A stretch of DNA of 64,000 bases from Hymenobacter sp. BRD67 (GTDB taxonomy: Bacteria > Bacteroidota > Bacteroidia > Cytophagales > Hymenobacteraceae), in NCBI RefSeq assembly GCF_013256425.1, contig NZ_CP053904.1, positions 1,240,001-1,304,000 on the forward strand, given 5' to 3'. This document shows positions 50,970 to 62,782 of the stretch, piece after piece. Below the pieces are notes generated by a model, which had not been told where the DNA came from, made no database searches, and was given only the letters and a program-made list of their open reading frames with translations. Position 1 is the stretch's first letter; each line of letters opens with the position of its first letter. The translations under genes and the position numbers were made by a program.

Positions 50970-52880
50970 TTACATCTCAGCCAGCATTTCCCAACGGTCG
51001 TTCTGGCGCGCCAATTCCTTTTTGGTTTGCTCAAATTTGAGGGTGGTATCTTTTAGCTGCGAAGCATTCTGGTAGATTTTAGGGTCGGCCAATTGCTTTT
51101 CGTAAATGGCCAGCTCCTTTTCCAGCTTGTCGATGCTGGCTTCTACCTCGGCTATTTCGCGCAGGGCTTTCTTTTGGTCGGGCGAGGGCGTTTTGGCGGG
51201 AGTAGGGTCGGCTTTAGGCTCCGGCTTGGGGGCGGGCTTGGCGGCCGAGGGGCTGGGGAGGCCGGCTTTTTTGGCGGCTTTCTCGCGCTCGTCCTGCCAC
51301 TGCTCGTACTCGTGGTAGGTGCCGGGGTATTCCTTGAGCTGGAAATCCTCGATGTACCAGATTTTAGTGGCCACGTTCTCCACAAAGTAGCGGTCGTGGC
51401 TGATGACGATAAACGTGCCCTCGTACTGCTCCAACGCCTGAATCAGGATGTTGACCGACTGCATATCCAGGTGGTTGGTCGGTTCGTCGAGCAGCAGGAA
51501 GTTGGCTTCCGAAATCAGGGTTTTGGCCAGCGCCACGCGGCTTTTCTCGCCGCCGCTCAATACCTTGATTTTCTTATATACATCATCGCCCGTGAACAGG
51601 AACGAGCCCAGCACGCCGCGCAATTCCATCTCGTTGCGCTTCGAGCCCGCCTCGTTCATTTCCTGAATAATCTCGTTGTCGATGGTCAGGCTTTCGAGCT
51701 GGTGCTGGGCGTAGAAGGCCATAATGACGTTGTGGCCCAGCTGGTGCTTGCCCGCGGAGGGCGTTTCGGCGCCGGCCACGAGGCGCATCAGCGTCGATTT
51801 GCCTTTGCCGTTGGCCCCGATGAGCGCGATTTTATCGCCCCGCTCGATGTGCACGTGCGTATCGCGGAAGATGAGCTTGTCGCCGTAGCTTTTGCCTACG
51901 TGCTCCATGCGCAGGATGTGGCGGCCGGGCTGCTGCGTGAAGGTGAACTTGAAGTTTACCTTGGCCGCGTCGGGCGCCACCGCCTCGATGCGCTCCAGCT
52001 TGTCGAGCGCCTTCACGCGGCTCTGGGCCTGCTTGGCCTTGCTGGCGCTGGCCTTAAAGCGCTCGATAAAGCGCTCGGCCTGCTTGATGGCCGCCTGCTG
52101 GTTGTCGTAGGCGCCCTGCTGAATCTCGGTGCGCAACACCTTCTCTTCCTGGTAGAACGAGTAGTTGCCGGCGTAGGGGTGCAGCTTGCCGCCGCTCACC
52201 TCCACGGTGGTATTAGTGGTGCCGTCTAGGAATTCGCGGTCGTGGCTCACAATAATTACCGCGCCCTCGTAGCCCGCCAGGTAGTTCTCAATCCACTTGA
52301 TACTCGGCAAGTCCAGGTGGTTGGTGGGCTCGTCGAGCAGTAGGAGGGAAGGCTGTTGCAGCAGAATTTTGGCCAGCATCACGCGCATGCGCCAGCCGCC
52401 CGAAAAGGTCTTGAGCGGCTTCTGCAAGTCATCGGTCGAGAAACCCAGGCCTTCGAGAATCTCTTCGGCCTTCGACTGCATGGTGTAGCCACCCAGCGCT
52501 TCAAAGCGCTCCTGCAGGTTGGCGAGCTTATCGACCAGGTCATCGGTATAGTCGGTTTCAAACTTGAGCAGAATCTCGTCGATTTTCTTCTGCAATTCGA
52601 GCGCCTCGGCAAAGGCCTGCATGGCCACCACCAGGATAGACTCGTGCGAGTCGTAGCTCAGCAAGTCCTGGTTCAGGAAGCCCAGGCTTACGTCTTTGCT
52701 CATGGAGATGGAGCCACCGTCGGGCTTGTACTCGCCCACGAGCAGGCGCAGCAAGGTCGATTTGCCGGTGCCGTTCAGGCCTACCAGGCCAATTTTATCC
52801 TTGGGTTTGATGTGCAGGCTGGCCCCATCGTAGAGGGTGCGCGAGCCAAAATGGAAGTCGAGGTCGGAAATGGAAATCAT
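50970..52880 (-). CDS. ABC-F family ATPase (translation factor / ribosome protection type)
   Basis: 636 residues from ATG 52880. Two ABC domains: GLNGTGKSTLL, FSGGWRMRVMLA, LLLDEPTNHLD, then GANGKGKSTLMR, LSGGEKSRVALAK, LLLDEPTNHLD. A charged linker (ERFIERFKASASKAKQAQSRVK) lies between, and a C-terminal coiled coil with a Pro/Lys-rich arm follows. Such proteins act at the ribosomal E site. The start codon region is the attachment site of the 9.5 kb element, so its upstream DNA is foreign. The family start MISISDLDFHFG rules out the frame start at 52901. Confidence 0.93.
   Translation of the reverse strand: MISISDLDFHFGSRTLYDGASLHIKPKDKIGLVGLNGTGKSTLLRLLVGEYKPDGGSISMSKDVSLGFLNQDLLSYDSHESILVVAMQAFAEALELQKKIDEILLKFETDYTDDLVDKLANLQERFEALGGYTMQSKAEEILEGLGFSTDDLQKPLKTFSGGWRMRVMLAKILLQQPSLLLLDEPTNHLDLPSIKWIENYLAGYEGAVIIVSHDREFLDGTTNTTVEVSGGKLHPYAGNYSFYQEEKVLRTEIQQGAYDNQQAAIKQAERFIERFKASASKAKQAQSRVKALDKLERIEAVAPDAAKVNFKFTFTQQPGRHILRMEHVGKSYGDKLIFRDTHVHIERGDKIALIGANGKGKSTLMRLVAGAETPSAGKHQLGHNVIMAFYAQHQLESLTIDNEIIQEMNEAGSKRNEMELRGVLGSFLFTGDDVYKKIKVLSGGEKSRVALAKTLISEANFLLLDEPTNHLDMQSVNILIQALEQYEGTFIVISHDRYFVENVATKIWYIEDFQLKEYPGTYHEYEQWQDEREKAAKKAGLPSPSAAKPAPKPEPKADPTPAKTPSPDQKKALREIAEVEASIDKLEKELAIYEKQLADPKIYQNASQLKDTTLKFEQTKKELARQNDRWEMLAEM
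52867..52880. other. attL: abcF-proximal attachment site
   Basis: One copy of the 14-bp repeat. On the abcF strand it supplies the start codon and codons 2-5 (M-I-S-I and part of S), so integration leaves the protein unchanged. Confidence 0.8.
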
Positions 52881-53209
52881 TTTATAGGCGTTTACAGCCA
52901 ATAGGAGGGCTTTTCGCCCTGGTCAGTCAGTATTCAGTCAATTTAGGGCCTATAACGTAGGTTTTCGGCACTAGGCATTCATGCCACAAAGGTACTGCTT
53001 ACTACTCCAGCCCGTCCTTATCGCTTTGCGGTTCAAAGTGGATTTGTTTTCGTCGCATTACCCATACGGGTATATTTAGCCGCGAGCACCAGTTAGCGCA
53101 GGCTCAAAAAAACATCGTGGGGGAGGTCACAAATGCGTTCCCCAAGTGTATACCCCGCAGTTCGAAACTACCCACCAACGCAAGTAAAGGCCCAAGCAGG
53201 CTCATCTAC
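52881..53209. other. left end of the element: outward promoter and putative integrase arm sites
   Basis: No gene. The minus strand has TACCTTTG at 52994-52987, a consensus -7 box 106 nt before the abcF start, so the element seems to carry a promoter for abcF. Repeats of tcagtca (52923-52929, 52934-52940) resemble those at the right end and may be integrase arm-binding sites. Confidence 0.55.
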
Positions 53210-53641
53210 ATGACAGATATCCACCAACAGCGCATCCGTGAAACATTACACGTACTCGGAAAGATTCAGCCCCAGGAATTGGCTCCCATCCTGGCGCATT
53301 ATTACACAACGCTCAGTTTTGCCGTAGCTCGGCAGCAGCTACAGCAGCTAGCAGATGCTTTTAGCTGCATTAGTGTGACTGTAGCGGGTTTTGTAATAGA
53401 TGCCGATTGGCAGCGTCGGGAGGAGGATAGTACTAAACACCACCAAGAGGCGATACGAAAAGCTACTGGGCCACAAGGTGAAATACTGTTGTCAGTAAAG
53501 CAAGTGGCCGAGCAACTCGGCGTAAATAAACAAAAGGTATACAGCATGATAGCAAGCAAAGAACTGCCTGCTACTAACATCAACGCTAACACCAATAAGC
53601 GTCCATTACTGCGTGTCCGGGCAACCGATGTTCTAGGATAA
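53210..53641 (+). CDS. excisionase-like HTH protein
   Basis: 143 residues from ATG 53210. The N-terminal helical half (QRIRETLHVLGKIQPQELAPILAHYYTT) has no known family. The C-terminal half is a MerR/excisionase-type HTH (ILLSVKQVAEQLGVNKQKVYSMIASKELPATN, then LLRVRATDVLG). Such proteins direct excision or control replication in Bacteroidota integrative elements. It is the first gene inside the left end. Confidence 0.75.
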   Translation: MTDIHQQRIRETLHVLGKIQPQELAPILAHYYTTLSFAVARQQLQQLADAFSCISVTVAGFVIDADWQRREEDSTKHHQEAIRKATGPQGEILLSVKQVAEQLGVNKQKVYSMIASKELPATNINANTNKRPLLRVRATDVLG

Positions 53642-53677
53642 TTGCACCCTCCCCTAATACAGGTAAATGGTACTTTA

Positions 53678-53833
53678 ATGTACTATTATGCCCGTTATAG
53701 AGTGTTTAACACTGCCATAGCACGCGGTAAATATGGCTTCAGAAGTAGCCTAGACAGTAAACGCAATGCTCTACGCGGGGCGATTAACCAAGGGATAGGT
53801 CATAGCGGCCAGATTGGAGGCCCACAAGCGTAG
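53678..53833 (+). CDS. possible small protein
   Basis: A 51-residue frame (MYYYARYRVFNTAIARGKYGFRS start) follows the HTH gene with no other candidate in the gap. It has no recognised domain, no clear ribosome-binding site and may be chance. Confidence 0.25.
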   Translation: MYYYARYRVFNTAIARGKYGFRSSLDSKRNALRGAINQGIGHSGQIGGPQA

Positions 53834-53877
53834 CGAATACATCATTTCGTGGGATTGGAGTTGCCGCCGATACAAAA

Positions 53878-54084
53878 ATGGGTGCACGTCTGCTCGTGCC
53901 CACTATTTACGGGAAATCCTACACCGTGAAATTAAATAATCGTCGCTTGCATATCCGCATCCCAGCTCACTTGCTCAGTAGGGCATATCAAATCGCCCAC
54001 CAGGGCGATGAAACACTATCAAGCATAGTCCGCGCTTACCTAGAAGCTTACACGGCTTCGCAGCCCCTTAAAAAGGCTGAATAA
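53878..54084 (+). CDS. ribbon-helix-helix-like small protein
   Basis: 68 residues. A predicted strand (RRLHIRIP) followed by two helices (AHLLSRAYQIAHQGD; TLSSIVRAYLEAYTAS) fits an RHH DNA-binding fold as found in plasmid copy-control and mobilisation accessory proteins. It lies just before the rep gene, which suits a regulatory or relaxosome role. Confidence 0.55.
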   Translation: MGARLLVPTIYGKSYTVKLNNRRLHIRIPAHLLSRAYQIAHQGDETLSSIVRAYLEAYTASQPLKKAE

Positions 54085-54136
54085 CCGATGAGCCGGAAAC
54101 TCCTCACATGTTCCCGGCCTTTGCGATTACCACAAA

Positions 54137-55263
54137 TTGAAAACAATTCTCACTATCGACCGCCTAACGTTACAACTCGTTAGCGGGTCTGCAATTCCCT
54201 TTAATCATAAATACATTACCCTAAACTATCCGCTAGCCGGAAACACCTACGCTGTAACTCCTGCTATTGAACTGCGGTATGTTGCCAAGCTTGAAAAGTA
54301 TTACATGCATAGCTGGGCTATCTGGATTGATGGGGGCATGTTGCTACCTTAAGCACCGATTGCCGACAAAATGGGCAAAGCGAAAGTATTCGTCTAAGCT
54401 TCGCAAATGAAGTATTTTATACAGCGCCTGGCTGGGCGAATTACTGGTGCCAAATACAGGAAAATTTGCCTCTGATTGCAAAGGGCATCAGCTATTTGGA
54501 AATAGCATCCGATTTTCAATTGGACGCGCCGCTATTACGTACGATGTCCGATTTGTATCGGCATTCCACGTTCATTGCCATGAATCCAAATGCGAAGTAC
54601 GGCCCCTTGCGTCACCAGCAAAAATGCAGCCTTTTAAACGGGTCGGAATATATTTTTGGCAATAGCCTAAAGGGAAATAAGGGTAGTGGTAAGCAAGTGG
54701 TTTTCTATCCGAAAAGCCCGGAAATCACTGTCCGGGGCAAAGACTACATATCGGCTTACTACGCCCAAAATGGGTTCGATTTAAGCCAGCTCGTGGAGCG
54801 GGTCGAAGTTCGGTTGAGTAGCCGTTACCTAAGCAAGTTCCTTGTGAGCATAACAGACCTGAACGATATACAGGCGCTAGGTAACATCTTCCGCGTTGCT
54901 GTGGGCGATACGTTCACGTTCCGAGTACTAGGCAAATACTACTACGATGCTAACCGTAACCGCAAGAGCGAAACCGTAACACTTCTGGAATTTGCCGATT
55001 TCTCTAACGAGTCACTAGTCAGGCGGCCCCAATGCATTCAAGATGACACATCCGATTGGCGAAACCGAGCCGAAGCTAAAAATGCGGTTTTACGGTTTGT
55101 TGCTCGTGGCAATGCACAGGATTGGGCTCAGCTAGTACATATAAGCCAAGAAGTGAGAGCGCCAGATGAATGGTCATGGAAAGCGCTATTCATGCTGTAT
55201 GCGCTCGATTATCAAGGAGCGCCAACACCGGAGCGTAAGGCCCGGATAGAGATGTTCCGGTAG
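54137..55263 (+). CDS. Rep_trans-type replication initiator / relaxase-like protein (apparent single-base frameshift)
   Basis: Two frames join at the G run 54332-54336; one added G yields 375 residues. The second frame is open well upstream of its first start and reads coherent protein. YIFGNSLKGNKGSGKQVVFYPKSPE matches the conserved core of the Rep_trans family (PF02486-type, plasmid RepC and Tn916 Orf20), followed by LVERVEVRLSSRYL. These proteins nick one strand at a hairpin origin. Here a hairpin begins 5 nt after the stop. The start is probably TTG 54137 and is uncertain. Confidence 0.6.
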
Positions 55264-55267
55264 GCTC

Positions 55268-55313
55268 ATCGTACCCCTGACCTAATCCTAATAAGTATGG
55301 GCAGGGGTACGAT
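55268..55313. repeat. hairpin copy A, candidate origin or terminator
   Basis: A perfect 12-bp stem (atcgtacccctg / caggggtacgat) with a loop containing taatcctaataagtat lies just past rep. The same loop recurs in copy B (57592-57637). The stems differ by a C-G to T-A exchange that keeps pairing. Confidence 0.75.
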
Positions 55314-55356
55314 AGGGCTATCGTGCTAGAATTTATGCTTGAATGAAATAGCTACG

Positions 55357-56148
55357 TTATTCGCGTAAGCAAACACTAACGGATACTACGTCATTCATTA
55401 GGTTTTTACCGTCTCCCTCGAAGCAGTCACCTTTCCGAGCAAGTTTGCAAACCAACTCTTTTTCAGTTTCACTACTAGTGTACTCATTGAGTGAAATTGT
55501 TCCATCCGAATTGTAGTGCCCTGTTATGCGGTGCTCCGAATGGTCAACACTGTTGGCATTATAAACCATAACGCCAACAATAGAACTGTCGCTGTGAAGC
55601 ACCAATTGAGCGGTAGCTTGGGTAGTATTCATCGACACGTTAAATATCCTGGCCCGTTCTATTTCAGGAAATATGTCGGAAAATGCGTGCGTTGTGTGGC
55701 TTGCTTGAGGCTCGTCTTCGTGGGGAGGAAGCGGAGCAGAATAAGACTCAACCGGGGGCGAAGTGGTCTCTACAGCGTTAGGTGAGGTATCCACCGCGTG
55801 TGCTACTTCGGGTAATGGCTGAGAGTCCGACGAGGAAACCGGACTGCCAGTATCACCAGTACAGTTGCTGTAAACAGCATCAAATTCGGCTTCTGCCTGC
55901 TTCACTTGCTGGTCATTCCAATCCTTGCTAATGCCCATATCCCGAAGGTCGGACTGCGCTTGCTGAGTTACTCGGTAGCATTCATCTGCCTTATTCGCCC
56001 TTGCGGTAGTATTGGATATCAACTTAAGCTCTGACCAACAATCACAGGCTCTGTGGGCGAGCGCTTCCGGGGAGCGGCCGGTGTATAAATCCTTGACCAT
56101 CGCATAAAGGAAAATAAGCGCAAGTACAGCGTAAAGGATTTTTCGCAC
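55357..56148 (-). CDS. hypothetical membrane-anchored protein
   Basis: 263 residues, probable GTG start at 56148. An N-terminal hydrophobic anchor (KILYAVLALIFLYAMVKDLY) is followed by a helical Cys-containing part (HRACDCWSELKL, DECYRVTQQ, YSNCTGD). A Ser/Pro-rich linker leads to a C-terminal beta domain (ATAQLVLHSDSSIVGVMVYN, DGTISLNEYTSS). No known family. It is on the opposite strand to the replication genes. Confidence 0.65.
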   Translation of the reverse strand: MRKILYAVLALIFLYAMVKDLYTGRSPEALAHRACDCWSELKLISNTTARANKADECYRVTQQAQSDLRDMGISKDWNDQQVKQAEAEFDAVYSNCTGDTGSPVSSSDSQPLPEVAHAVDTSPNAVETTSPPVESYSAPLPPHEDEPQASHTTHAFSDIFPEIERARIFNVSMNTTQATAQLVLHSDSSIVGVMVYNANSVDHSEHRITGHYNSDGTISLNEYTSSETEKELVCKLARKGDCFEGDGKNLMNDVVSVSVCLRE

Positions 56149-56225
56149 AGGCTGTATGGTTATTATTTTGTCAATTAGATAATATTCGAACTTAAGGGCG
56201 ATTTGAACTTGCCATGTAATTATTG

Positions 56226-56894
56226 TTACCTAATCCTAATCTGTTTACTTCGCAGAACTTGCTTAGAACTAGACTTAGGCAGGGTAGGGGAGTTTTTCTT
56301 AGCAAGGAAAGCGAAAGAGTGGACACACTCTATGCCCTGCTCCATGTTCCCTGAACGCTCTGCCTTCGAGGCTGGGACATGCGAGCGCTCTGTTGCTATT
56401 ATACGAAAAACATTTTTGTTTTGAATTAGCATTATAATACAATACTCATTGCTTATTTTCCCTTCCTCTGCTATTGTTTTGCATCGTATATCCAGCGCCT
56501 TCAGTCCGTTCAAGTCTATAACCTTTTTAGATTCATTTACAATTTCGCCCTCTGCCACCGAGCTAGCTAAATCTTTTACTGAAGATTCATTAAGCTCATC
56601 GATTGTAGGCATTCGAGGAAACATTGCTAAGGATTCTGCTGATACAATAACTTGATTCCAGTCGGTAACATTATAAGTCGAATTATTCAAATTAACTACA
56701 CTATCGCTTGCTACTAGGCTGGTAGTACGCTTTCTGTTCTCGTCAAGTGATTCATTGGCTCTGCGTATTCTATAGCCTTTAGGTATATTAATGCTATAAG
56801 AAAATAGCCCGCTTTTATAGACGTGCTGCGCCTTGGTTTGTTGAATAGATAAAAGAACAAGTATCAATACTAGAAAATTAAACTTTTGGTACAT
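56226..56894 (-). CDS. hypothetical secreted protein
   Basis: 222 residues with a signal peptide (FLVLILVLLSIQQTKAQ). The mature part is a beta-rich domain (GLFSYSINIPKGYRIRRA, ECVHSFAFLAKK) that resembles uncharacterised envelope proteins. It precedes the membrane-anchored gene on the same strand (77-nt gap), so the two may form a cargo operon. Strongly AT-rich. Confidence 0.65.
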   Translation of the reverse strand: MYQKFNFLVLILVLLSIQQTKAQHVYKSGLFSYSINIPKGYRIRRANESLDENRKRTTSLVASDSVVNLNNSTYNVTDWNQVIVSAESLAMFPRMPTIDELNESSVKDLASSVAEGEIVNESKKVIDLNGLKALDIRCKTIAEEGKISNEYCIIMLIQNKNVFRIIATERSHVPASKAERSGNMEQGIECVHSFAFLAKKNSPTLPKSSSKQVLRSKQIRIR

Positions 56895-57158
56895 GGTTAA
56901 ACAGAAAGGAATTATGAAGTAGTCGTGGTAGCTTGAAGCATTTAAGGGTCAAAATCGACTCGTTAGGCTGCTCCCGACCTCGTGACTTTTGCAAAGATGT
57001 TCCTGCTATTGCTCCGCCAGCACAAATAAATTCTTAACTATATGGCTGGTACCAGAGCAGCAAGCGAGGACTTTTTACTCGGTAAATATATGGAGCGCGG
57101 TGTGATTTGGCATCCAATCGTATGCTAAAGGTGCTGTTTTACTTTTCCAGCTTGCAGC

Positions 57159-57377
57159 GTGATTCGCAACAAAGCTGGTTTAGTTGCCTTCGGTCTGCGC
57201 CTGCGTAGGTTGCGTGATGAACGCAACCTTAGTCAGCAGGCCCTAGCCGATATCGCTAACATCTCTAAGCCAGCAGTTCAACGAATTGAAAAGGGTACTA
57301 CATCTACAGGGCTAGACCTATTGTTTTCGCTAGCAGAGGCCCTAGAAATGCCTGTTCACGAGCTGATAAAGCTGTAG
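57159..57377 (+). CDS. XRE-family HTH regulator, possible R-M controller protein
   Basis: 72 residues from GTG 57159. A Cro/C1-type HTH covers almost the whole protein (FGLRLRRLRDERNLSQQALADIANISKPAVQRIEKG), the size of type II restriction controller proteins. It lies 565 nt before the methyltransferase on the same strand. A cact-aa-agtg palindrome (57867-57876) before the methyltransferase is a weak candidate C-box. Confidence 0.72.
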   Translation: MIRNKAGLVAFGLRLRRLRDERNLSQQALADIANISKPAVQRIEKGTTSTGLDLLFSLAEALEMPVHELIKL

Positions 57378-57942
57378 ATGGTTAGTCCCTATGGTGGGAA
57401 GGGGAGGCAGGGAGCCAACTTCACCGTCAAACTATCTCGGGCTGATTTGTTGCTTATGGCAACATCTATGACAGTGCTCAATTGACATATGTCTTCCAAG
57501 TAGCGAGAACGCAAGCTGAACGCTTGGTCAGACTTGAAAAGAAAAGTGGCCCCGAACGGATGGGGGCGAATCGATATGCTTCCGCAGGCTCATCGTATCC
57601 CTGACCTAATCCTAATAAGTATGGTCAGGGATACGATGCCGCAGTTGTCCACAGTCGAAATGTTCTATTTATCCAAGGGTGCTCTTCTACGAGCTGTGTG
57701 GGGTAAGTCGTCTGCAAGGGCAGATGTGTAGGTACTTACTGCTGTGACGGCGGGTGCTTGTAAAAGGGGAATCCAAAAATTGGGGCACGAACAAACCAAT
57801 GGCTTGCATTATTGAAGGTTATGGGTTCTTGTTGTGTGCAGCACACTGCCGGATTGACTTAAACCGCACTAAAGTGTTTAGTTTTACATGGTGCGAGTGC
57901 TGAAAGTATTCTCATTTATTAGCATTTAAAGTTATTGAGGTT
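57378..57942. other. leader region of the R-M genes, no gene seen
   Basis: This 565-nt stretch contains hairpin copy B (57592-57637) and the small palindrome at 57867-57876. A 65-codon frame at 57534 lies across the hairpin and has no protein-like features. The methyltransferase promoter should be in the last 100 nt, which are AT-rich. Confidence 0.45.
57592..57637. repeat. hairpin copy B, covarying with copy A
   Basis: A 15-bp perfect stem (atcgtatccctgacc / ggtcagggatacgat) encloses the 16-nt loop taatcctaataagtat, identical to copy A. The flanking aggctc before the stem is also shared. Relative to copy A, paired positions changed together. Confidence 0.78.
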
Positions 57943-59130
57943 ATGCCTGCGTTCTATGAATTTTTTGCCGGTGGCGGTATGGCTCGCGCTGGTCTCGGGC
58001 CAGGTTGGCAATGCCTTTTCGCCAATGATTTCGATGAAATGAAGGGCGCAACTTATGCGGCTAACTGGGGGGCTGACGACTTGCTTGTTGGCGATATTGC
58101 CAATGTGACAACGCAAGACCTGCCAGGGGCTGCTGACCTTGCATGGGCATCCTCGCCCTGCCAGGACTTATCGTTGGCGGGTAACGGTGGTGGGCTAGGG
58201 TTGCCCGATGCTGAGGTAATGACACGCTCGGGCACTTTTTGGCGATACATCGCGCTAATGCACCAGTTAGCCCAAGAGAACCGAGCCCCCAAACTGGTAA
58301 TATTTGAAAATGTAGTAGGGGCGATTACTTCGCATGAGGGCAGGGACTTCTCTGCAATTGCCGGGGCATTTGCGGGCCTTGGCTACCGCTTTGGGCCGCT
58401 TGTCATAGATGCTCAGTTGTTCGTTCCTCAATCGCGCAAAAGACTGTTTATTATTGGGGTTCGTCAGGACATAGCCATACCTCAAGCGTTACGCGATACG
58501 GCCCATAATACCGCTTGGCATCCTACATCAATTGTAAGCGCCTATAATCGGCTTGCCCCAGGAGTGCGTGAGCAATGGATTTGGTGGAACTTGCCAGCGC
58601 CTCCGCAACGGCCGGAGAACTTTATTGATATAATCGAAGAAAACCCTCAAGGAGTAAACTTGCACAGCCAGCAGGAAACACAGAACCTATTGGCTATGAT
58701 GAGTCAAGTCAATCTAGCGAAAGTTGCCCAGGCTCGTCAAACAGGGCAAAGGATGGTAGGAGGTATCTATCGGCGTATGAGGCCAGATGGTCAGGGTGCC
58801 AGGGTGCAACGTGCCGAGGTGCGCTTTGACGATATCTCAGGCTGTTTGCGTACGCCTTCTGGCGGGTCTTCCCGGCAGGTAATCCTTATCGTTGAAGGAA
58901 ACCACACCGAATCAAGGTTGCTATCGCCTAGAGAGGGGGCACGGCTTATGGGCCTAGACGATAACTACATCTTGCCAGCAAATTACAATGATGCTTACCA
59001 TCTCGCTGGGGACGGTGTAGCAGTACCCGTAGTGCGACATCTGGCCGCCAATCTGTTCGAGCCCATACTAGCCGCAAACGAGCAAGTTGCTCAAGTAAAC
59101 CCGGCTGAACTAGCTGTAATGGCCAACTAA
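57943..59130 (+). CDS. C5 cytosine DNA methyltransferase
   Basis: 395 residues. Motif I FYEFFAGGGMARAGLG, motif IV ASSPCQDLS with catalytic Cys73, motif VI VIFENVVGA, motif VIII QSRKRLFIIG, TRD region RFDDISGCLRTPSGGSSRQ and motif X GDGVAVPVVRHLA are all present. It methylates cytosine C5 in an unknown target. It is followed after 1 nt by the DUF4928 gene and then Vsr, a standard type II cluster. Confidence 0.93.
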   Translation: MPAFYEFFAGGGMARAGLGPGWQCLFANDFDEMKGATYAANWGADDLLVGDIANVTTQDLPGAADLAWASSPCQDLSLAGNGGGLGLPDAEVMTRSGTFWRYIALMHQLAQENRAPKLVIFENVVGAITSHEGRDFSAIAGAFAGLGYRFGPLVIDAQLFVPQSRKRLFIIGVRQDIAIPQALRDTAHNTAWHPTSIVSAYNRLAPGVREQWIWWNLPAPPQRPENFIDIIEENPQGVNLHSQQETQNLLAMMSQVNLAKVAQARQTGQRMVGGIYRRMRPDGQGARVQRAEVRFDDISGCLRTPSGGSSRQVILIVEGNHTESRLLSPREGARLMGLDDNYILPANYNDAYHLAGDGVAVPVVRHLAANLFEPILAANEQVAQVNPAELAVMAN

Positions 59131-59131
59131 C

Positions 59132-60061
59132 ATGAGAGAAGCACTAGAACGGTTCTACCAAGAAAGTAGATTTAACACGAAAGGCCCTTTAAGCGTTGCC
59201 TTGCAATTAAGCAGAGCCTTTCAGGGCGCAGAAGTACCCATCAACCCCAACGACTTTCTAGCCGACCGAGGCGGCCAAGTAAAAGGACTCGGCGGGCCGA
59301 ATCTCAAGAAGATTTTGCTTGGTTATGGAATCGACCGCCCTTTGTCGAGCGAAGGAGGTAGAACAAGCCGAGGAAGCATTGATAATATGCGTGCCTACGT
59401 TGAGTTTCTCAATGACTATGGCAGCTTTGCTCCGATTGATTGGGACGAGGTGGAACAGTTCTGGATAGGTAAGATACAGGACTATTTCGACGCCACTCCC
59501 TTTACGTTGAGTCTTGATGCTTCACAGAGCATCAAAACTATCATCCGTGATGTGACGGAGCAGGCAGTCAAGCGACAACGACTTGTCACCGGGGTTAAGT
59601 ATCTGGGCACTATAATGCAGCACTTGGTTGGGGCTAAACTAGATATGGTTATGGGAGCCGGTACCATAACTCATAATAGTTCTAGTAATAATGACCAAGA
59701 GCACGGCAGAACTGGGGACTTCGATATTGGCGACGTCAGCATACACGTGACAACCCGGCCATCCGAAGCCTTGCTCATAAAATGCCGCGAGAACCTAGCT
59801 GCGAACCGTAAGCCCCTGATTGTTACAATTGACAACGGGGTTGGGCTAGCGAGCGACTTGGCGAACGAACTAGGAATTGAAGAACGTGTTGAAGTGATTG
59901 ACTTCATACAGTTCATTGTGGCGAACATCCACGAAAGAGGACTTTTCGACCGGACAGGCCGCCATAGCCGAATTGAGGAACTAATAGAGCGATACAACTC
60001 AATCATTGACCGTTTTGAAACGGACCCTAGCCTCAAAATCGAAGTTGCCGCTGGGCGGTGA
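59132..60061 (+). CDS. DUF4928-family protein, probable type II restriction endonuclease
   Basis: 309 residues. EHGRTGDFDIGDVSIHVTTRPSEALLIKCRENL resembles a PD-(D/E)xK-like arrangement (D-x-D, then E...K) of DUF4928 proteins, which are encoded next to C5 methyltransferases. The N-terminal helices (REALERFYQESRFNTKGPLSVALQLSRA) are also typical. It starts 1 nt after the methyltransferase stop. Cleavage activity is inferred from context; the recognition site is unknown. Confidence 0.75.
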   Translation: MREALERFYQESRFNTKGPLSVALQLSRAFQGAEVPINPNDFLADRGGQVKGLGGPNLKKILLGYGIDRPLSSEGGRTSRGSIDNMRAYVEFLNDYGSFAPIDWDEVEQFWIGKIQDYFDATPFTLSLDASQSIKTIIRDVTEQAVKRQRLVTGVKYLGTIMQHLVGAKLDMVMGAGTITHNSSSNNDQEHGRTGDFDIGDVSIHVTTRPSEALLIKCRENLAANRKPLIVTIDNGVGLASDLANELGIEERVEVIDFIQFIVANIHERGLFDRTGRHSRIEELIERYNSIIDRFETDPSLKIEVAAGR

Positions 60062-60068
60062 GAAAGCC

Positions 60069-60470
60069 ATGACACGGTCAGAGGTTATGGCTCGCGTCAA
60101 ATCCAAAGACACAACCCCAGAATTGGCAGTTCGAAGGGCGCTTTTTGCCGCTGGGCTTCGATATAGGTTAAACGCCAAACAACTTCCGGGCTCACCTGAT
60201 ATCATTTTGCCTTCTCGGCGAATAGCCATCTTTGTGCACGGATGCTTTTGGCACCGCCACCCCGACTGTAAACGCGCTACTTTTCCTAGTAGTAACGTCC
60301 TATATTGGCAGGGTAAGTTTGACAGAAACGTTGCTCGGGACGCTGAGGCAAAAGAGGCTATCCAAAATTTGGGTTGGCAGCATATTACCATTTGGGAATG
60401 CGATATTAGGACTCCTGCTAAACTCGCTGAGCTTGTGGATAGAGTGAAGGCTAGCGCAGTGTTGCAGTGA
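60069..60470 (+). CDS. vsr: very short patch repair endonuclease Vsr
   Basis: 133 residues from ATG 60069. TRSEVMARVKSKDTTPELAVRRALFAAGLRYRLN, LPGSPDIILPSRRIAIFVHGCFWHRH with catalytic Asp and the His pair, and ITIWECDI are family hallmarks. Vsr nicks T:G mismatches left when 5-methylcytosine deaminates, protecting the host from mutation by the adjacent methyltransferase. It lies 7 nt after DUF4928. Confidence 0.93.
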   Translation: MTRSEVMARVKSKDTTPELAVRRALFAAGLRYRLNAKQLPGSPDIILPSRRIAIFVHGCFWHRHPDCKRATFPSSNVLYWQGKFDRNVARDAEAKEAIQNLGWQHITIWECDIRTPAKLAELVDRVKASAVLQ

Positions 60471-60496
60471 AGTTATTTGTTGTCGTTGTAAGCGCT

Positions 60497-60805
60497 ATGA
60501 AAGTTATTTTTTATGCTCCAGGCCAGCCGCCGCGTGATATTTCGCCTGATGGGTTTGAATTACCCAGCACACCCACCGGCTTTGCTCGCGTTACTAGCCG
60601 AGTGGTCGAGGAGCTTGGCTGTCCTCCTCACCTTATCGACGTGCAGGCATGCGGTCCCGGATTTGTCGCCTATACTATTGCTGACCACGAGGGCGAGCCC
60701 AATGAGCTAGGTATGCTCGCATTGGCAAAAGCAACGGGCTATACTTATAGCGTAGAAGATGATGACACCGTTATCTGCGGCCCGGTGCTCATAGTAACAA
60801 TATAG
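60497..60805 (+). CDS. hypothetical small protein downstream of vsr
   Basis: 102 residues from ATG 60497; a GTG at 60467 overlapping the vsr stop is an alternative. Beta-alpha elements (MKVIFYAPGQPPRDISPDGFELPS, RVTSRVVEELGCPPHLIDVQACGP, VICGPVLIVTI) show no known family. It is the last gene of the R-M run, so it may modulate it or be passenger cargo. Confidence 0.6.
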   Translation: MKVIFYAPGQPPRDISPDGFELPSTPTGFARVTSRVVEELGCPPHLIDVQACGPGFVAYTIADHEGEPNELGMLALAKATGYTYSVEDDDTVICGPVLIVTI

Positions 60806-60878
60806 GGTACCCCTCCGGGGCCGTGTATCCGCGACCCCGCCCCGTGGGGTACCCCCTAAAATATTGTAGGGCAAGCGT

Positions 60879-62180
60879 TTACGAAATTTTTGGTAATTCT
60901 ACATATTTGAAACGGCTCATTATATCGGCCTCCCCGATTTCATTATCTACGTAGCGGGCGAAACTTTCCAAATTTTTGTGGCCTGTCCACCTACGAATCT
61001 TAAATTCTGGAATTCCATCCATAAGGCACCGGGTAACAAACGTCTTGCGCCCTACGTGGCTACTAAGGTACTGGTACTTACGATTTTTACTTTCGTCAAC
61101 TACACGAGCATTTCCACTGAAAGCCGTGCGAGTGAAAGCATTATGTAGGGAAGGGCACATTTCGCCCAGTGCCACAAGGCGAGCGTTGTACTTACCTAGG
61201 TCCGTCGCTCGCATTCCGTCCGGGTATTCTGCTAGTACCTTGCGACTCAGCCAATTCAAAGGTATTGTGAGCGTGTCCCCTGTCTTCCGCGTGACAATTT
61301 GGATGGCGTCGTTATTAATGCAGTGAGGGCCAACGCGGGTAACATCCGAAAAGCGCAAACCTGTAGCGCAAGCTAGCGAGAACAAGGCTCGGGCGTACCG
61401 CAAATGCTTGCAGTCAAGTTCTAGGGCGAGCCACTCAGCTAATTCTTGCTCATTTAGAGCTACTATTCGTTGATTCTTAGGTGCGTCTTTATGGGTTTTA
61501 TCTCGCTTGTACTCTCGAAACGCAACATGCTTACTTACACCCATCTGCACGAAGTAATTGAGCAATGCCTTGAGCCTTGCTATGCGGGTTTTAGTCGTAC
61601 TGTTGAGGTGGCCTTGTTCAAGCATGAAGTCGTTGAACCGGGTCATGAGCGCAAAATCGAAGCTGGCAAGCGTCAATTTTATTCCGTGGGCTCTCTCAAA
61701 CTCTAGTAGTAGGGTACCTAGCGGTTTTAAGCCTCGTGCCGTGTTGTAGCCATCTTTATGTCCGTCAGTGCCTTTCTTGACTTTTGCTTTCAGTACGGCC
61801 TCGTAATCCTTGAATAGCTGCCAGAAAGTGACTTTCGCCCCCGGCGAACCTTTGGCATTTTTAGGGGCCTTCCACAGTTCTTCTAATACTTCGGGGGTGG
61901 GTACCGTTCCGTTATCCTCCGAGTAGCGGCGGATTATGCGTGTGAGTTGGGACTTCGTGGTATCAATCGCCTCGTTTCCATCAACGATGCTTGCGTTATG
62001 CTCTTTCCAGGCTGCCCCTGCGCACTTTACAAGTCGCCCATCCTCCATGCCACCACGCTGGACTTTTAAGCCATTTTCACCAACAGGAAAGCGTTTACTT
62101 GTCCCATTGTGAGCATACTGTACATATACGTTTTCGAATCCTTTGCTGTCTAGGTTTCGAGTGATGACTTTAAGTGACAT
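60879..62180 (-). CDS. tyrosine recombinase (integrase) of the element
   Basis: 433 residues. An N-terminal arm-binding domain (NVYVQYAHNGTSKRFPVGENG), a SAM-like core-binding domain (FDFALMTRFNDFMLEQGHLN) and a catalytic domain are visible. The catalytic Arg is in ACATGLRFSDVTRV, the HxxR in LSSHVGRKTFVT, the second His in RRWTGHKNLESFARYVD and the nucleophile Tyr in the same segment. Its start lies 193 nt from attR. It should catalyse insertion at the 14-bp abcF site. Confidence 0.94.
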   Translation of the reverse strand: MSLKVITRNLDSKGFENVYVQYAHNGTSKRFPVGENGLKVQRGGMEDGRLVKCAGAAWKEHNASIVDGNEAIDTTKSQLTRIIRRYSEDNGTVPTPEVLEELWKAPKNAKGSPGAKVTFWQLFKDYEAVLKAKVKKGTDGHKDGYNTARGLKPLGTLLLEFERAHGIKLTLASFDFALMTRFNDFMLEQGHLNSTTKTRIARLKALLNYFVQMGVSKHVAFREYKRDKTHKDAPKNQRIVALNEQELAEWLALELDCKHLRYARALFSLACATGLRFSDVTRVGPHCINNDAIQIVTRKTGDTLTIPLNWLSRKVLAEYPDGMRATDLGKYNARLVALGEMCPSLHNAFTRTAFSGNARVVDESKNRKYQYLSSHVGRKTFVTRCLMDGIPEFKIRRWTGHKNLESFARYVDNEIGEADIMSRFKYVELPKIS

Positions 62181-62235
62181 TAGCGCGGTTTTGGGGTGCT
62201 AGACATGTTCACCTTATACGCAATTCATCTGAATT

Positions 62236-62323
62236 TAGTCAGTCATCAGTCAGTCTGTTTTGTATTTTTCTGTACTATTGTGTCAGTCTTCTGAAGATAA
62301 AAATAGCCTTACTGATGACTGAG
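62236..62323. repeat. tcagtca-type repeats, candidate integrase arm sites (right end)
   Basis: tagtcagtcatcagtcagtctg at 62236-62257, tcagtc at 62283 and the inverse actgatgactgag at 62311-62323 lie between the integrase and attR. The same heptamers occur near attL. Confidence 0.5.
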
Positions 62324-62372
62324 TATCGTTTTTGTATTCCAGAGTGATAAGGTATTTTGACGTCTGTGATTT

Positions 62373-62386
62373 GAAATGGAAATCAT
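62373..62386. other. attR: right attachment site, orphan abcF start codons
   Basis: The second exact copy of gaaatggaaatcat. On the minus strand it reads ATGATTTCCATTTC, after which the abcF coding sequence is replaced by element DNA. Confidence 0.8.
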
Positions 62387-62782
62387 GGCGGGGCCGGTTG
62401 CGGCCACTGTAAGCGAGCAAGACGCGGTGGAAGAGTAGGCTAAACGGCTAGCCCGCTCCATACCAGTGGCGGTGCAAAGGTACGGCCCGGCCCGGTCTAT
62501 CCGGGCAGCCAGCATGAAGTTCGCCGGCCGGGTGACTTGCTTAAAACTCGTGGGAAGCCGAAAGAATTTCGGCGGGTTCGGGATTAGTGCCGGAGTTTAA
62601 AGCAAGCTATTCTGAACATTGGCCGGGTCAAAATGACCCGACTAAAAATACTGTTTCAGCAAGTGTATTGTAGCCAATAAATTTAAAATACTGTTAATCA
62701 GTATTTTATAGGGAAAAATTTAGTGATTATTTAATTAAGGGCTGGAATTGGCAATAGGGGCACTACACTATTCCAGCACCCG
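62387..62782. other. ancestral abcF upstream region with stranded promoter; porin leader
   Basis: No gene. On the minus strand TACCTTTG at 62482-62475 is a consensus -7 box 88 nt before the orphan abcF start at 62386, so this is probably the original abcF promoter. The AT-rich part from 62640 on probably holds the promoter for the porin. An inverted cgggtca/tgacccg pair lies near 62624-62641. Confidence 0.6.

Follow-up and report, generated by a model that had tools for sequence, protein, structure and literature searches.

When the start codon of a conserved gene serves as the attachment site of a mobile element, is a housekeeping gene rewired each time the element integrates, and is the integrase then supplied from the host promoter? 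A start codon used in this way lets an element replace the whole transcription control of a gene and leave the protein untouched. These questions are raised by a locus in a 64,000-nt stretch of Hymenobacter sp. BRD67 (contig NZ_CP053904.1, positions 1,240,001 to 1,304,000; hereafter the window), in which abcF, the gene for a YheS-like ABC-F ATPase, adjoins an element of 9.5 kb (window 52867-62386). The element is bounded by a 14-bp exact direct repeat, GAAATGGAAATCAT, with copies at 52867-52880 and 62373-62386. On the minus strand the repeat reads ATG ATT TCC ATT TC, the abcF start, as had been claimed in an original prediction made from the DNA letters of the window. The G+C content of the element is 48.0%, compared with 58.8% in the remaining window. 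Its integrase scored above the cut-off of Pfam PF00589, which places it among the tyrosine recombinases; R276, H375, R378, H401, and Y410, which we take to be catalytic residues, were invariant among four sequences.

An uninterrupted locus, which the original prediction had expected in relatives, was found in the near relative G019. There, the sequence starting at window position 62387 sits directly before the abcF ATG, and the joined window flanks align to G019 as a single block (1800 of 1800 query bases, 86.3% identity). The locus thus combines flanking direct repeats equal to the chromosomal attachment site (attB) with an empty site in a relative, as is characteristic of integrative elements of tyrosine recombinases. 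The gene that received the insertion is conserved: its N-terminal part was matched in all 101 genus genomes searched, although the G010 match lies at a contig end and is limited to residues 1-89, and that in G035 is only 37% identical and paralogue-like. The closest solved relative of AbcF is YheS (E 7e-123). Comparison of attachment sites in the window and in a second genus (G203, below) showed that insertion at the 5' end kept the reading frame. Window 52867-62386 is therefore probably a small integrative element with a tyrosine recombinase and with the first 14 nt of abcF as attB; we assign this explanation as a whole, including the expression of abcF from an element-borne box proposed below, a probability of about 0.8.

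Related elements were found by integrase searches. Among 120 genus genomes, 13 had matches at E ≤1e-30, and four of these, the window's included, showed at least 50% identity. A profile search of 204 Hymenobacteraceae genomes gave six matches at ≤1e-60, five of them scoring >500 bits and that of G031 225 bits. The five closest integrases (5 of 204 genomes) each lie at a start codon and form one clade with a support of 100/100 (14-row tree, midpoint-rooted, with long outgroup branches flagged; two outgroup loci were omitted because their frames could not be read). The other, distant integrases are at 30-35% identity. G006 (Hymenobacter duratus BT646) has an insertion of 4255 bp, and the 14-bp copies that bound it, ATGATTTCGATTAC, match the abcF start as it reads in that genome; the far end carries the native box and an orphan ATG, and an alignment of the joined flanks to G089 crosses the junction (484 of 484 query bases, 79.8%). 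G203, which belongs to another genus, has an element of 7749 bp at abcF, with ATGATTTCCATCTC as the far copy and GTGATTTCCATCTC as the gene copy. The abcF start of G203 (L096:7614-7627) is GTG, and the far copy and all seven congeners have ATG; GTG would be expected if the first base were element-derived, with later mutation as the alternative.

The remaining two insertions are at mlaF. The names mlaE and mlaF are presumptive assignments based on protein sequences and gene order. In G086 (Hymenobacter sp. CA1UV-4), 12937 bp lie between copies of ATGATTGAAGTATC at the mlaF start, shortly after mlaE; the other case is a Hymenobacter bin, G036. Of 12 mlaE loci, these two are interrupted, seven have mlaF intact behind mlaE, and the other three are paralogues of mlaE that lack mlaF. 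In the tree as drawn, the mlaF integrases are nested among the abcF integrases, which suggests one change of target gene.

The attachment sites share their geometry across this family. Arm-type repeats lie at -61 and -50 from the core in all four left ends, the -61 copy of the window differing by one base. All five right ends have CTGACT at +118 to +120 and again at +129 to +131. Each side has a pair of direct repeats with a spacing of 11 bp, as would be expected of integrase arm sites. Among 104 abcF loci (96 of the genus and eight of G203's genus), paired arm repeats were present at the three occupied ones only. A protein with an HTH_17 helix-turn-helix (HTH) domain is encoded just inside the left end, in an orientation divergent from that of the target, in all four elements having such an end, with 44-63% identity to the window copy, for which the Pfam and PHROG scans were run on a longer frame (53117-53641). 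This protein, which has a weak PHROG match, is a candidate excision factor.

Does integration change the sequence that controls abcF? TAnnTTTG is reported as the -7 consensus in Flavobacterium psychrophilum (PMC9723704; this and the other papers are cited from excerpts). The abcF upstream regions were examined in 96 of the 101 genus genomes (G010, G016, G035, G070, and G099 being outside), with one abcF start each. TAnnTTTG was present within 200 nt of the start in all 96, and in 92 it was TACCTTTG. Two of the 96 loci are interrupted (window and G006). In the 94 uninterrupted ones, the box was within 45 nt of the start in 83 and at 79-100 nt in 11, which bears out the proposal that the box 88 nt before the orphan start in the window is the native one. 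In G203's genus, seven of eight abcF loci are uninterrupted, with the box at 26-28 nt; in G203 itself it is at 103 nt. The element-borne box proposed 106 nt before abcF is also present and has counterparts in the two other abcF insertions: TACCTTTG lies 103-115 nt before the gene in three of the four left ends, namely all three at abcF. The fourth, the mlaF element of G086, has TACCTTTA at 106 nt. Octamers of the TACCTTTG type number seven on both strands of the window, against 1.3 expected. These comparisons indicate that integration displaces the native abcF box and that the element supplies a promoter-like box in its left end.

Several alternatives were weighed. By itself, the 14-bp repeat is within chance, since about 0.34 such pairs are expected in 13.5 kb, and further repeats of 13-16 nt turned up in the same search; its meaning thus rests on the start-codon position, the G019 empty site, and the related elements. 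The empty site is continuous over the junction, and homologous elements with corresponding repeats occur elsewhere, including in another genus, so that we rejected a chance match at a junction produced by ordinary rearrangement, the probability of which is negligible. A further alternative concerns the choice of target. Each of the five insertions falls on an ABC-ATPase start of the form M-I-x-[IV]-[ST], three at abcF in two genera and two at mlaF, and none was seen elsewhere. The shared feature may nevertheless be merely a DNA motif (ATGATT...C), the ABC-ATPase link being coincidental, and we consider this a serious contender at somewhat below even odds: just two gene families were observed, and the mlaF integrases are sisters of one another. 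When the five cores are written as an IUPAC consensus, G019 (4.4 Mb) contains seven matches, compared with one for the reversed pattern; they comprise the abcF start, the mlaF start, a site within a longer open frame, three sites at frames of 5, 31, and 101 codons, and presumably an araA-like start. The consensus was built from the five insertions themselves and is hence circular as a test of specificity, and the five-of-five agreement at ABC-ATPase starts counts against a bare motif with the same reserve, n being five.

As for control of the gene, abcF could be cut off from its promoter without replacement and be off or low until excision. There is precedent for this: SpyCIM1 in the 5' end of mutL blocks transcription, which excision restores (PMC4689407, PMC3430984). 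The TACCTTTG box found 103-115 nt before the gene in three of four left ends makes such silencing improbable here; chance would place it in three of four 120-nt stretches at roughly 1e-6 if these were independent, a figure that overstates the case because the elements are related. Alternatively, promoter supply may be real and passive, the box only keeping a housekeeping gene on, with no switch and no element control. We put this at even chances. The element box is identical to the native octamer, and in G006 the 20 nt around it, GTACCTTTGCAGCTTCAAAG, fit a degenerate abcF-promoter pattern exactly; a search of seven genomes gave no exact fit other than at abcF promoters and at the G006 left end, so that the G006 element may have captured a host promoter. 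Against a purely passive box, the changed distance and 5' leader, the nearby arm sites, and the divergent HTH gene could modulate it. The box is thus a putative promoter, and control of abcF by the element, as opposed to maintenance of its expression, is likewise putative. Promoter capture as a general rule was rejected: when 18 positions around the box were compared, only G006 stood out, narrowly, with 13 of 18, the window scoring 11, G203 10, and G086 7, against a maximum of 12 in 28 TACCTTTG sites that are not abcF promoters. The genome-wide pattern search is the better evidence for capture, and for G006 alone.

The position of the integrase gene (int) raises the converse question. In four elements int starts 191-194 nt inward of the core, and G203 has candidate starts at 146, 163, and 197 nt. 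In the window, no terminator-like site was found between the displaced native promoter and int, and a hairpin of the arm repeats is possible there (z -2.0). Because int runs in the same direction as the target gene and sits close within the opposite end, upstream sequences would be swapped in both directions on integration. In the integrated state, host upstream sequence would lead into int and the element box into abcF; once the element is excised as a circle, int would instead be faced by the element's own box. The element would keep its target gene expressed from its box, comparable to the copy of a tRNA end that tRNA-targeting elements bring along. At mlaF, the spacer after mlaE forms the host side, and int would be reached by the mlaE transcript. 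That int gains host upstream sequence, and that the family also uses mlaF, goes beyond the original prediction. The two-way exchange follows from the geometry; its use we infer.

Extending this, we propose tentatively, and with less than one chance in three in its favour as we judge it, that a lineage-restricted integrase clade recognises the DNA that codes for a conserved part of ABC ATPases, their first strand (M-I-x-[IV]-[ST]), and carries out a reciprocal, reversible promoter exchange. When integrated, the host promoter would drive int and the element promoter the host ATPase; upon excision, each promoter would return to its own gene. If so, the integration state would determine how a translation factor, or MlaF as a lipid-transport ATPase, is expressed, and integrase supply would be set by the promoter of the host gene. 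Five insertions, one integrase clade, two paralogous kinds of ATPase gene, empty relatives, and a conserved attachment geometry make the question of rewiring testable in sequenced isolates.

Some observations weigh against the account given above. The five elements are related, so that their shared features are not five independent observations. The G036 element has its right end at the mlaF start and its left end beyond the contig. The G036 bin (L077, L070) also holds an intact mlaE-mlaF pair, one of the seven, and its mlaE copies are 92% and 90% identical to G086 mlaE; having both an interrupted and an intact pair, the bin may mix strains or carry two copies. In G036, TATCTTTG lies just before int, so that int may have its own promoter. 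The box of the G086 mlaF element is one base off the consensus. The upstream promoter element of this phylum is TTG, roughly 19-21 nt before the box; in the four left ends TTG ends 24-39 nt before the box instead, and no TTG was found within 45 nt of the native boxes in the three checked. Finally, a gene region of the window (54120-55263) has a broken reading frame, and the window copy of the element may be partly decayed.

Table 1 Features of the abcF locus and its integrative element (window coordinates).
Feature	Position	Strand	Remarks
abcF, YheS-like ABC-F ATPase, host gene; start codon is the attachment site	50970..52880	-	Pfam ABC_tran/ABC_tran_Xtn/ABC_tran_CTD
Attachment core, gene-side copy, ATGATTTCCATTTC (first abcF codons)	52867..52880	-	Repeat listing and empty-site comparison
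Left-end arm-type repeat CTGACT	52925..52930	-	-50 from core; same offset in G006, G203, G086
Left-end arm-type repeat TTGACT	52936..52941	-	-61 from core; CTGACT at -61 in G006, G203, G086
Element-borne promoter-like box TACCTTTG	52987..52994	-	106 nt before abcF ATG
HTH_17 protein, candidate excisionase/regulator	53210..53641	+	Divergent from abcF; Pfam HTH_17 3e-8; PHROG excisionase/regulator 7e-5
Remnant related to G203 395-aa protein; frame interrupted upstream	54340..55263	+	tblastn 36% over 304 aa, 1e-55
Xre-like (HTH_3) regulator frame, possibly restriction-system controller	57162..57377	+	Pfam HTH_3 2.7e-14
C5 cytosine methyltransferase, cargo	57943..59130	+	Pfam 9e-42; PADLOC DruM and type II methyltransferase models
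DUF4928, PADLOC type II restriction enzyme, cargo	59132..60061	+	Pfam and PADLOC
Vsr nicking endonuclease, cargo	60006..60470	+	Pfam and PADLOC
Tyrosine recombinase (integrase, int)	60879..62180	-	Co-oriented with abcF; Pfam Phage_integrase and SAM_5
Right-end arm-type repeat CTGACT	62237..62242	-	+130
Right-end arm-type repeat CTGACT	62248..62253	-	+119
Attachment core, distal copy (orphan abcF start codon)	62373..62386	-	Reads as 25-codon open frame
Native abcF promoter box TACCTTTG, displaced and lying before int	62475..62482	-	88 nt before orphan ATG; box upstream of abcF in uninterrupted relatives

The cargo differs between members, which form a family of small Bacteroidota elements carrying exchangeable restriction systems. 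Restriction-modification systems, each of a different kind, were found in three of the four full-length elements: that of the window (Table 1), a MmeI-like type IIG enzyme in G203, and type I HsdM, S, and R in G086. Beside the type I system, the G086 element encodes a DUF1883-TIR protein (L063:16874-17665), a possible additional defence gene. G006 has three open reading frames (ORFs) of at least 90 aa besides int, namely the HTH gene and two without a Pfam family. The 395-aa protein of G203 to which the window remnant is related has a weak PHROG replication-initiation match (E 0.037). The window element also contains two similar strong hairpins (55258-55323 and 57591-57638; z -5.1 and -6.2) in direct orientation, with stems around ACCTAATCCTAATAAGTATGG. 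They bracket a 2.3-kb block of two genes without a Pfam family and the Xre-like frame, and allowing up to three mismatches the motif has only these two occurrences in the whole genome; perhaps they are cassette boundaries or paired terminators.

No relaxase, conjugation, or mobilisation family of Pfam was found among 10 ORFs of the window element or 12 proteins of G006, G203, and G086 scanned, small ORFs being partly covered, so that the elements were not classed as integrative and conjugative elements (ICEs) or integrative and mobilizable elements. Likewise, no primase or packaging-interference gene was recognised in the proteins scanned with Pfam and PHROG, where large proteins without assignment (357 aa in G006; 505 and 371 aa in G086; 395 aa in G203) leave room for a diverged replication gene. 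A phage or plasmid origin was rejected, as the integrase had no close relative in the collections searched: 25 records matched in 'phages' and five in 'plasmids', all with <60% identity, and in viral_contigs none of the 28 stretches matching either of two short peptide patterns was confirmed, a limited test. In genome_contigs, the search of which may leave out the window's own genome, three loci of 67 pattern matches were confirmed, all in Hymenobacter (G036, G086, and G006). An order-level search found the integrase in 4 of 390 genomes, none new; up to four candidates were scored per genome among the matches listed, and weaker members could be missed. ARAGORN detected no tRNA in the window or in 13 loci, that of G031 included. 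The end of the G031 locus, which has a distant integrase, resembles a tRNA 3' piece by eye.

The original prediction had regarded a start-codon attachment site with promoter replacement as unusual. The insertion and the replacement of the box held up; the case is less rare than had been claimed, since dusA islands and some streptococcal ICEs behave comparably (PMC8409611, PMC4701971). In dusA islands, insertion at the 5' end supplies a new promoter and also new 5' coding sequence (PMC8409611, PMC4482086); for IMEVchUSA3, the new promoter was shown by a lacZ fusion. Such islands and prophages, with DAI integrases, resemble the present family in being tyrosine-integrase elements at the 5' end of a conserved gene. 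There, however, the N-terminus changes, whereas the core of the abcF/mlaF family starts at the ATG and the protein is kept; the present family also belongs to another phylum and has abcF and mlaF instead of dusA as targets, a separation made by target genes and not by integrase comparison. Streptococcal ICEs insert in the 5' end of ftsK, ebfC, and rbgA, and in two rbgA cases and in ebfC integration leaves the protein N-terminus as it was and puts wholly different sequence, promoter included, upstream of the gene (PMC4701971). These ICEs are conjugative, whereas none of the proteins scanned here was recognised as a conjugation protein.

In Streptococcus pyogenes, SpyCIM1 silences mutL until excision, and in one strain mutL is rescued by a promoter inside a decayed int (PMC3430984). 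SpyCI likewise inserts at the 5' end of a housekeeping gene and splits it from its upstream operon partner, as at mlaE and mlaF; in contrast, the abcF/mlaF family has a promoter-like box in three of four left ends and a near-match in the fourth. Phage-inducible chromosomal islands (PICIs), P4-like satellites, and small defence islands share with it small size, an integrase with an AlpA/excisionase-like HTH protein, and variable defence cargo (PMC10111431). Here, the integrase is likewise accompanied by an AlpA-like regulator, the HTH_17 protein at four of four left ends (the G086 copy by alignment only), whereas the scanned proteins included no recognisable primase or packaging protein. Parts of this description of satellites and defence islands are general background. 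Among Bacteroidota islands, the 10K GI of Riemerella anatipestifer shares a tyrosine integrase, direct repeats, and small size, and its target is an Arg-tRNA gene (PMC6764341), as opposed to a start codon here. No paper on elements at the abcF or mlaF start codon was found among the matches listed for open-licence PMC papers. Promoter replacement at the 5' ends of genes is thus already known; what appears to be new here is the phylum, the target genes, and a core placed exactly on the ATG.

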